Below are positions 1 through 1,816 of a stretch of 12,716 nt of DNA, piece by piece; positions within the stretch are counted from its first letter, which is position 1; every line of letters begins with the position of its first letter. Below the pieces are notes generated by a model, which saw only the letters and a program-made list of their open reading frames with translations, had not been told where the DNA came from and made no database searches. The DNA comes from Desulfonatronospira sp. (GTDB lineage Bacteria > Desulfobacterota > Desulfovibrionia > Desulfovibrionales > Desulfonatronovibrionaceae): assembly GCA_003563255.1 (NCBI GenBank), contig PWSL01000339.1:1-12716 (forward strand), written 5' to 3'. The position numbers were made by a program, and so were the translations under genes.

Positions 1-338
1 AGTACTACCGCATCAAAGCCGGCATGCTTGAGTGCCGGTCCGAAATAACCAGCCGCCTCAGACTCTCCAAAGCCGCCGGTCAAAGGATTCATGGCTGCTG
101 CTGTATAACGGTTGAAGCCTGATATTCCGCTGCCGCAGAGTACGGATGCCGCAAACACCAGAACATTGTCCGGCCCCAGGGGATCAGCCTTGGGCGGAAT
201 TTCCTTGAGCATATACCAGGAGGCAAGGGACCCGCCGCCCCAGTAGGTGCGGTACCAGGCCTCATCATGCTCATCCACGGACCAGGTCTGGTTGGTCAGA
301 TCCACGACCAGTATTTTTCCGTTGTAACCAAAAGGCAT
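1..338 (-). CDS. Aldehyde:ferredoxin oxidoreductase family protein, N-terminal part (cut by window edge)
   Basis: About 112 N-terminal residues of a tungsten-pterin aldehyde:ferredoxin oxidoreductase (AOR) family enzyme. The start MPFGYNGKILVVDLT, then YWGGGSLASWYMLKEIPP, DPLGPDN, RYTAAAMNPLTGGFGESEA and GYFGPALKHAGFD follow the family's N-terminal domain in order. Known members oxidise aldehydes to carboxylic acids with ferredoxin as acceptor. The complete protein is usually about 600 residues, so most of it lies left of the window, including the cysteines of the [4Fe-4S] cluster. The ATG has a good Shine-Dalgarno (AAAGGAGT) just upstream. It is the last visible gene of the minus-strand cluster, separated from the CuyA-like gene by a 297-bp gap holding a REP-like element. 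By context it could oxidise an aldehyde such as 3-sulfolactaldehyde; that role is inferred. The family call is firm, the substrate is not. Confidence 0.88.
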   Translation of the reverse strand, partial: MPFGYNGKILVVDLTNQTWSVDEHDEAWYRTYWGGGSLASWYMLKEIPPKADPLGPDNVLVFAASVLCGSGISGFNRYTAAAMNPLTGGFGESEAAGYFGPALKHAGFDAVV

Positions 339-366
339 ATGAAGACTCCTTTAATGGTTTTGTCAA

Positions 367-525
367 TTAACACTACAGCGAAACTTCAAAAAATTATAAC
401 CTGTCTCAATTGGGGACAGGCACCCCCGCACTTATTTATCTGAAGGATGATTGACAGGTTTTAAAAATAAGTGCGGGGAGAGCCAGTCCCCGGAGGTCAA
501 TAAATAAGTTTCGCTGTAGTGTTAA
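367..525. repeat. REP/MITE-like nested palindromic element, copy A
   Basis: The outer arms form a perfect 20-bp inverted repeat (367-386 with 506-525). Inside is an 80-bp core (412-491) with its own nested stems: GGGGACAGGC (412-421) pairs with GCCAGTCCCC (482-491) with one mismatch, and CCCCGCACTTATTT (424-437) pairs perfectly with 465-478. The core is about 85% identical to copy B at 1706-1786, including the loop motif TCTGAAGGA. The outer arms are not the same sequence as those of copy B. Cores of this GGGGACAGGC/GCCAGTCCCC type resemble REP elements mobilised by RAYT (IS200-like) transposases, but no transposase gene is in the window. The element lies between the CuyA-like gene and the AOR gene, so it would be transcribed if these are one operon. 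Confidence 0.8.
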
Positions 526-635
526 GAAAAGTCATAGTTTTCAGGTTTTAAGCTGTAAGAAAATGGCTGGCTTAAATAAAAGCAGTCAGGTCCTCCAGAC
601 ATGCAGCCTGAAACATTATTAACCTTCTACCTGTA

Positions 636-1643
636 TTAATTTTCTTTCCTGAACGTCTGCATACAGGCATACAGCGCGGGTGAGCCACCGGTATGCAGGA
701 ACAGGACATTGCTGCCCCGTGGAAAATGTCCGCAACGGACCAGATCCAGGAGGCCGGCAGCCGCCTTGCCTGAGTATACCGGGTCCAGTAAGATGGCTTC
801 ATGCTTGGCAAAGATGCGAACCGCCTCGACCATGGAGTCCGTGGGAAGGGAATAGCCGGGGCCGACATACTGGTCGTAGCAGACGACCGCCTCCCTGGGG
901 ATGGACATCTTCATTTCCAGCTTTTGCGCAGTCTCCTCAGCCAGGTTGTGAACGATGTCTTCCTGATCTTTCTTGGGTCTGGAGACGTTGACTCCGCTGA
1001 CCGGGATATTGGCATTCGTGCCGAACATGCCTGCAACCATGCCGGCGTGTGTACCAGCGCTGCCGGAGGGCACGACGATGTGGTCGATGCCAAGGTGCGC
1101 CACATTCAACTGGTTCATGATTTCTTCTGCGCAGACCGCATAGCCCAGGGCGCCAATGGCGTTGGACGCTCCTCCGGGGACGATATAGGGTTTTTTACCA
1201 TGGGATTTCAGTTCATCCCCTTTTTTGCGCATTTCGGCCATCATGTCCGAACCGCCGGGGACAACAGCAATGCTCTTTATGTTTAACAGGTCGAATAAAA
1301 AGTTGTTTCCGCTTGCTTCAGGGCTGTAGGTTCCCTTGACCCGTTCTTCCAGTATCAGGTGGCAATCCAGATTTTCCTTGCAGCACCAGGAGGCCGTCAG
1401 CCGACTGTGGTTGGACTGGACCGCACCGCAAGTAATGATCGTATCCGCTCCCTGTTCCAGAGCATCTGCCAGGCTGAATTCCAGTTTGCGGGTTTTGTTT
1501 CCCCCGCCGGCCCCCGGCAACAGATCGTCGCGCTTGACAAACAGATTGACATCCTTTCCCAGGGCTTTGCTCAGGTTTTCCATGCGCTCGATGGGGGTAG
1601 CTCCTTGCAGGTAGGCACGACGGGGAAACTTGGTAAAGTTCAT
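636..1643 (-). CDS. cuyA: PLP-dependent lyase, probable L-cysteate sulfo-lyase / D-cysteine desulfhydrase family
   Basis: A 335-residue fold-type II PLP enzyme of the ACC deaminase/D-cysteine desulfhydrase family. The PLP lysine is K50 in GGGNKTRKLEF; the phosphate and substrate loops QSNHSR (S77, N78, H79) and PSGSAGTHAG (192-201) are intact. At the two positions that separate ACC deaminase (Glu, Leu) from sulfur lyases it has Ser291 (DPVYSGK) and Thr318 (HTGGSPALY), so it is not an ACC deaminase. The motifs EERVKGTY, SGNNFLFDLL and VPGGSDM fit the CuyA branch as I remember it. CuyA cleaves L-cysteate to sulfite, ammonium and pyruvate. A GTG at 1650-1652 is also in frame but overlaps the Shine-Dalgarno GGAG (1652-1655); the ATG ending at 1643 is the better start. 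RidA lies upstream in the same direction, which fits release of 2-aminoacrylate. D-cysteine desulfhydrase (DcyD) is the main alternative. Confidence 0.65.
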   Translation of the reverse strand: MNFTKFPRRAYLQGATPIERMENLSKALGKDVNLFVKRDDLLPGAGGGNKTRKLEFSLADALEQGADTIITCGAVQSNHSRLTASWCCKENLDCHLILEERVKGTYSPEASGNNFLFDLLNIKSIAVVPGGSDMMAEMRKKGDELKSHGKKPYIVPGGASNAIGALGYAVCAEEIMNQLNVAHLGIDHIVVPSGSAGTHAGMVAGMFGTNANIPVSGVNVSRPKKDQEDIVHNLAEETAQKLEMKMSIPREAVVCYDQYVGPGYSLPTDSMVEAVRIFAKHEAILLDPVYSGKAAAGLLDLVRCGHFPRGSNVLFLHTGGSPALYACMQTFRKEN

Positions 1644-1674
1644 GATATTCACTCCTGACTGTTATGATTAAATT

Positions 1675-1816
1675 AGTATCTGTTTAGCGTTTTTTTAGGA
1701 AAGCAGGGGACAGGCCCCCCACACTTATTTTTCTGAAGGAGGTTTGACGGAATTTTTTAAAACAAGTGCGGGGGGAGCCAGTCCCCGTACCACATGCAAA
1801 GCGCTAAACAGATACT
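1675..1816. repeat. REP/MITE-like nested palindromic element, copy B
   Basis: The outer arms AGTATCTGTTTAGCG (1675-1689) and CGCTAAACAGATACT (1802-1816) are a perfect 15-bp inverted repeat, extendable to 1693/1798 through one G-T pair. The 81-bp core (1706-1786) begins GGGGACAGGC and ends GCCAGTCCCC, with inner stem CCCCCACACTTATTT against AAACAAGTGCGGGGG (two A-C mismatches). It aligns with copy A over the whole core with about nine substitutions and three small gaps. The segments between core and arms (1690-1705, 1787-1801) have no counterpart in copy A. The element fills almost all of the gap between ridA and the CuyA-like gene. Confidence 0.8.

Follow-up and report, generated by a model that had tools for sequence, protein, structure and literature searches.

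Families of MITEs are usually defined by one terminal inverted repeat (TIR) and one interior, which descend together. In bacteria, such families include RUP, NEMIS and Nezha (available part of PMC3733652). Several other repeat systems are relevant to the elements reported here, each as described in the available portions of the source cited. Inverted repeats with the consensus GGGGWSAS lie beside Y1 "TIRYT" transposases, some of them roughly as far from the gene as the motif copies described below (PMC3733652), and most TIRYTs belong to subclass 2.1, with C-terminal HTH domains (PMC6006769). In these portions, GGGGWSAS is described without a tested function. Degenerate REP units joined to unrelated stem-loops occur in hundreds of copies in two Pseudomonas species (PMC3733652). 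BOX, from Streptococcus pneumoniae, is a repeat built of modules; it has TIRs, duplicates its target and varies at its center (PMC3049150). Finally, certain insertion sequences target REP palindromes and enter them at the symmetry axis, one of them with 3-bp direct repeats (PMC1525189).

Here we analyze a contig of 12,716 nucleotides (C435, which we call the window) from a Desulfonatronospira genome of 3.52 Mb in 532 contigs, in which two short repeats have a similar central hairpin. In our judgment, it is very probable that these repeats belong to two unrelated families of non-autonomous MITEs, moved by transposases acting on their TIRs, with the same kind of exchangeable hairpin cassette at the center. 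Like the bacterial MITEs described in the available part of PMC2229807, they are short, bounded by TIRs, free of genes, hairpin-forming and flanked by direct duplications; they differ in that a single set of exchangeable cassettes occupies the center of families whose TIRs are unrelated. Their cassette boundary, GGGGACAG, fits GGGGWSAS and the genome has Y1 genes, in which they resemble TIRtrons and TIRYT repeats. However, as far as the available portions of PMC3733652 and PMC6006769 go, TIRYT repeats flank a Y1 gene, whereas the repeats here bound a gene-less cassette inside the MITEs of other families. The abundant imperfect palindromes and the Y1 transposase genes also recall REP/REPIN-RAYT systems, but there is no GTAG tag, and the unit is enclosed in elements that have TIRs and duplicated targets. 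BOX resembles our elements in its modularity, TIRs, duplications and variable center, but varies the number of one module, while the cassettes here replace each other, and do so in different scaffolds. The likeness to REP-targeting elements lies in the entry at the symmetry axis; these, however, are full insertion sequences, unlike the cassettes reported here, which are gene-less hairpins of 71-101 bp. Searches of the open-licence PMC literature listed no previous account of bacterial MITEs that are unrelated and yet share cassettes.

An earlier note on this DNA, made from the sequence alone, had described two copies of a core, each within its own perfect inverted arms. Both are indeed present, and exceed chance expectation in shuffling and folding tests. 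The arms of copy 1 (367-386/506-525) are 100% complementary over 20 bp, and those of copy 2 form a pair of 26 nt at 85% that contains a perfect 15-bp stretch (1675-1689/1802-1816). The cores (412-491 and 1706-1786) have 83% and 91% identity over two overlapping stretches. Inverted 15-nt seeds at most 200 bp apart number seven in the window, as against zero in each of 60 dinucleotide shuffles, and seven is the number expected from the two arm pairs alone. Folded as single-stranded DNA, the copies give z-scores of -10.6 and -8.4, and none of 200 shuffles was as good for either copy.

Read along the plus strand, copy 1 consists of a left TIR of family B (CACTACAGCGAAACTT, 371-386), a left inner arm of the B1 type (CAAAAAATTATAACCTGTCTCAATT, 387-411), a hairpin cassette of type G1 that runs from GGGGACAG to CAGTCCCC (412-491), a right B1 inner arm (492-505) and a right TIR (AAGTTTCGCTGTAGTG, 506-521) that matches the left one as an inverted repeat. 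TTAA adjoins it on both sides (367-370 and 522-525). Copy 2, on the same strand, has a left TIR of family A1 (GTATCTGTTTAGCG, 1676-1689), a left inner arm of the A type ending in TTAGGAAAGCA (1690-1705), a G1 cassette whose core matches that of copy 1 (1706-1786), a right A-type inner arm (GTACCACATGCAAAG, 1787-1801) and a right TIR matching in inverted orientation (CGCTAAACAGATAC, 1802-1815). Its outer A/T pair (1675/1816) lies outside the shared TIR, and its flanks, TTAAATTA and TGAAATAA, have no exact 8-bp duplication. The inner arms of copy 1 are common to B1 elements, and those of copy 2 to A elements.

Both copies lie in gene leaders. On the minus strand, the window encodes the N-terminus of an aldehyde ferredoxin oxidoreductase (start at 338), a PLP-dependent enzyme (636-1652) and an L-PSP/RidA-like protein (1829-2209), after which TRAP transporter genes come next. 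Copy 1 starts about 32 bp upstream of the oxidoreductase start codon, and copy 2 about 23 or 32 bp upstream of that of the PLP enzyme, depending on whether the GTG or a later ATG is used. Because the two MITEs (371-521 and 1676-1815) are thus some 23-32 bp from start codons, their hairpins may be transcribed in the leaders. Two further observations concern these genes. The oxidoreductase start (window 3-350) has a second, 95% identical copy on contig C121, and the best matches in a protein search with the PLP enzyme were two Desulfovibrionales MAGs, one of them labeled Desulfonatronum.

That copies 1 and 2 are MITEs is secure; they come from two families, each with many copies, whose TIRs are unrelated. 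Family B, to which copy 1 belongs, has the TIR CACTACAGCGAMACTT and a 4-bp, NTAN-like duplication; family A, that of copy 2, has the TIR GTATCTGTTTAGCG and an 8-bp duplication. We searched 594 kb of the host genome (60 stretches and the window, mostly picked for containing cores) for inverted pairs of the arms, allowing up to 2 mismatches, and found 34 pairs for copy 2 (GTATCTGTTTAGCGC) and 42 for copy 1; the pairs are 130-159 bp long in 27 of the 34 A and 33 of the 42 B cases. A comparison genome of the same genus, G006, has 92 single A sites and 73 single B sites. B1 and B2 elements have a common TIR and different inner arms.

Target duplications were counted in 709 kb of the host's 3.52 Mb. 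Here, 11 of 34 A1 elements have an exact 8-bp duplication (shuffled mean 0.33, maximum 3), or 15 if one mismatch is allowed, and 22 of 41 B elements have an exact 4-bp duplication (shuffled mean 3.57, maximum 9), mostly NTAN. The corresponding numbers for stretches of G006 are 7 of 12 A1 elements (shuffled mean 0.58, maximum 4) and 26 of 33 B elements (mean 6.08, maximum 13). Flanking direct repeats peak sharply at exactly 8 bp for A1 and 4 bp for B. An exact duplication of the family's length is absent from 23 of 34 A1 and 19 of 41 B elements of the host, chimeras among them, and age is a likely reason for others.

The earlier note had proposed a comparison with empty sites in relatives, and G006 provides one for copy 1 exactly: its sequence matches window positions 3-370 and 522-1657 around one TTAA. 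Given this single TTAA, the 20-bp "arm" of copy 1 includes 4 bases that are a palindromic target duplication, and its inverted repeat proper is 16 bp. Copy 2 is also missing at the orthologous place (G006, L095, L097), where divergence of the spacers prevents an exact reading of the junction. In the mechanism that we propose, each copy would be moved as a unit by a putative cut-and-paste transposase that recognizes its own TIR, with a duplication of 4 bp made by the B transposase and of 8 bp by the A transposase.

These results change the picture of the arms given in the earlier note. It had taken them to be specific to each copy, had doubted that they were conserved TIRs and had treated direct target duplications as missing. 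We find two conserved TIR families with direct duplications of 4 bp (B) and 8 bp (A1). That the arms are unrelated holds for the two window copies compared alone, but dozens of further elements have arms of one type or the other. The survey of flanks that it had suggested for all copies has a divided result: the arms are shared, yet they fall into more than one family.

Two explanations offered for copy-specific arms can be judged on the same evidence. The first is that the core, on inserting, copies the flanking DNA in inverted form. Taken alone, the two window copies do look this way, but with dozens of copies per arm family and flanking DNA that is duplicated directly, we see practically no chance that it is correct. 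The second is that the arms of A and B go back to one family and diverged while selection kept them paired. The arms of A1 and A2 are in fact related in a way that looks like divergence of one family. Between A and B, however, the TIR, the duplication (8 versus 4 bp) and the inner arms all differ, and other species of the family have these arm types too, again as separate types, so we regard a common origin by co-variation as highly improbable.

The cassettes have sharp boundaries. Of 119 long cassettes, 117 begin with GGGGACAG and 112 have the ends GGGGACAG...CAGTCCCC; most share approximately 10-12 nt at each end, with CAG at both borders. Their orientation relative to the arms is fixed, with none of 121 elements reversed. 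Exact matches to the core, GGGGACAGGC-N45-75-GCCAGTCCCC, number 353 in the host genome, and the pattern read backwards has none. Among 297 genomes sampled from the order, five have exact cores (353, 65, 100, 30 and 4 copies), and all five belong to one family. With the window copies as the query, diverged relatives are also matched in two more genomes of the genus, G002 and G003. The earlier claim of a core conserved inside unrelated arms stands in the sense that the same boundaries are found in unrelated arms; what it missed is that each arm type is shared by many elements.

One might suppose that the core is a classical REPIN of the GTAG type, moved by a RAYT. High copy number, the imperfect palindrome, a conserved A-A mismatch and the Y1 genes of the genome all agree with this. 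However, there is no GTAG or GTGG tag at the foot of the hairpin, where the GGGG is typically preceded by AGCA (A), AATT (B1) or CACC (B2). Moreover, the window and the first 60 stretches contain 142 distinct cores, of which 117 are accompanied by at least one recognized MITE arm. We therefore consider a REPIN very unlikely. Two arms of one family are present at 59 of these cores, and that many cores are without such a pair counts against our main reading.

The most distinctive property of the cassettes is that they are shuffled between unrelated scaffolds, a pattern that is well supported. Both arms were recognized in 121 elements (62 from the host, 41 from G006 and 18 from others), in which four types of arm are combined with five types of cassette. 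With A1 arms we find cassettes of types G3 (30), G1 (13), G2 (2) and others (2); with A2 arms, G1 (3), G4 (3), G3 (2) and G2 (1); with B1 arms, G1 (25), G2 (14), the GGGGACAGTC type (6) and a bare 13-mer (2); and with B2 arms, G2 (13), G1 (4) and one other. At least 95% identity to a cassette in unrelated arms is seen for 16 of the 119 long cassettes (8 in A, 7 in B1 and 1 in B2), and at least 90% for 22. These counts pool A1 and A2; if A1 versus A2 is counted too, the number at 95% is 35 of 119. Conversely, arms that are identical over 58 nt surround different cassettes within one genome, both for A1 (L080 with G1, L051 with G3) and for B1 (L225 with G2, L235 with the GGGGACAGTC type). Since one scaffold can hold different cassettes, which take each other's place, and one cassette is found in several scaffolds, cassette and scaffold have partly separate histories. 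The shuffling is not free, as 103 of the 119 cassettes have no 95% match in unrelated arms, and no exchange of a cassette between two strains was caught.

This has consequences for classification. In one small bacterial group, a handful of cassettes turn up in MITEs of several kinds, interchanged with precise borders. Because interior and scaffold are shuffled in this way across at least two unrelated TIR systems, assigning elements to families by their interiors would be misleading. Intermediates are available in a few genomes.

Some elements have little or nothing at the cassette position. Two B1 elements of G006 (L205 and L201) have only a 13-bp palindrome there, GGGGACAGTCCCC. A further MITE family, D, is found in the host stretches and in G006 (e.g., L067:6952); it has the TIR GTAACCATTCAGGGGG, an 8-bp duplication in 8 of 22 cases, and either GGGGACAGTCCCC alone or two copies of it around a cassette of its own, GCGACACC...CTTAGC. 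In the 709 kb, a D-like end lies within 150 bp of 30 of the 32 exact copies of this 13-mer, and in L204 a D element with the duplication CTCCGGGG is inserted in the center of a B1 element. The bare 13-mer may be the ancestral target, or may result from deletion through the CAG direct repeat. The suggestion that cores enter pre-existing palindromes may be correct, as two B1 and some D elements have GGGGACAGTCCCC alone at this position. Core-less A elements of 41-45 bp (L068, L073, L078) and short B elements of 52-61 bp (L198, L199, L210) look like deletion products, not ancestral empty MITEs.

Nested elements are also observed directly: a B2 element with a TTAG duplication inside an A TIR (L071:6775), an A element inside the left arm of a B element (L037:5645), and an A element that sits in another A element's core and is flanked by an 8-bp duplication with one mismatch (L051). 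Three chimeras combine one A and one B arm and have an intact outer A duplication, namely L035:1257 (TTTATCAG), L066:2263 (CATTTTTT) and L089:15116 (CGGATTAT). Such chimeras could arise by nested insertion followed by deletion between the cores, while clean swaps would need more.

How cassettes are exchanged is a separate question. Exchange of the central cassette, bounded by GGGGACAG and CAGTCCCC in both MITEs, might make use of the hairpin and of the 8-12 nt at its ends. Template switching or short-homology recombination between hairpins could bring it about, or else a TIRYT-like Y1 protein acting at GGGGACAG. The first of these would need no dedicated enzyme, and would be aided by nested insertion and by deletion between cores. 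It would account for the chimeras with A and B arms around one core, their outer duplication intact, and for the perfect-palindrome cores GGGGACTGGC...GCCAGTCCCC that they contain. The shared ends and CAG borders of most cassettes also favor it, and slippage between the CAGs would presumably leave the observed 13-mer. However, clean swaps with intact arms need two exact exchanges through some 8-12 nt, and the boundary is identical in 112 of 119 cassettes. With these points on either side, we put the chance of this route slightly below even.

The second route is a Y1 transposase of the TIRYT kind that would insert the cassette at GGGGACAGTCCCC sites, and remove it from them, in single-stranded form. 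The earlier note had advised looking for a RAYT or IS200-type gene, and Y1 transposase genes are in fact present in the genome, including on contigs C255 and C270. One Y1 protein has a C-terminal HTH_23, a domain described for subclass 2.1, with a score just over the cut-off, and GGGGACAG fits the consensus of TIRYT-flanking inverted repeats in the available portions of PMC3733652 and PMC6006769. At L055, GGGGACAG precedes the ATG of a Y1 gene by 78 nt, and at L057 the ATG of another is preceded at 81 nt by TGGGACAG, which has one mismatch to GGGGACAG; the bare 13-mers at the cassette position are a further point in favor. On the other hand, REP_Tyr_transpos scores are 61-66, below the cut-off of 80, and GGGGACAG is common anyway (220 in 709 kb, both strands). 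An inverted pair of the motif on both sides of a Y1 gene was not seen at L055, L056 or L057, where contig ends cut several flanks. Specifically, the first Y1 gene of L055 has its downstream side cut; the second has no motif in 300 bp downstream and its upstream side is cut; the downstream motif copy at L057 is part of a B2 fragment in the same orientation; and the contig of the L056 Y1 fragment has no exact GGGGACAG. On balance, we think this route possible but doubtful. Its most specific version is unlikely: a Y1 HUH transposase would recognize GGGGACAG in single-stranded hairpins and excise or insert cassettes at a GGGGACAGTCCCC hub, so that cassettes ride on several scaffolds. The fit of the cassette boundary to GGGGWSAS makes the system a natural substrate for testing what these Y1 proteins do.

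We also looked for autonomous partners, which MITEs usually but not by strict definition have, of the two families whose movement by TIR-specific transposases we favor. In the 594 kb of host sequence, no A or B TIR pair of more than 450 bp was found in a search up to 3,000 bp, and inspection by eye of every TIR site listed for G006 (73 for B, 92 for A) revealed no pairs at insertion-sequence distance. Around the IS66, DDE_Tnp_1 and IS4 genes that we checked, the loci examined, some of them cut by contig ends, show no A or B TIRs paired as element ends. The ends of the G006 IS66 element could not be fixed from five copies, and a PHROGs search gave no matches. The duplication lengths fit those of IS66-like (A and D) or IS5-like (B) families, of which the elements may be derivatives.

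Two candidate partners were rejected. In L100, an IS66-type gene has an A2 arm and half a core on both sides, but close reading resolved this into an element with IS66-type and DruA-domain genes (L100:242-3009, contig C430), with its own ends GTAACTTCTCAATAGTTCTGGG and an 8-bp duplication, CAAAAACA, inside the loop of a MITE. In L057, an IS4_3 gene is truncated by half an A element; it was dismissed because two full copies in G006 are without A ends. Fragments of IS4_3 also lie near MITEs in L147 and L148.

Finally, the core is seen in a few additional arrangements. Units of a core plus spacer form tandem arrays, with three units about 124 bp apart at L036:1826-2164 and four about 103 bp apart at L050:8341-8730. 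A piece of about 31 bp, CTCCGGGCTGTATGCCTCCGGGCAGGAAGCC, lies between the core and the right arm at L060:1732, L071:7943 (with one base different), L089:5218 and in L163. The core is also found in a further context, TGCTTGCATGTT...core...GTGCTCAACGCGTCCTGCA, at L047:4547, L052:9328 and L070:8367, which is possibly another scaffold.
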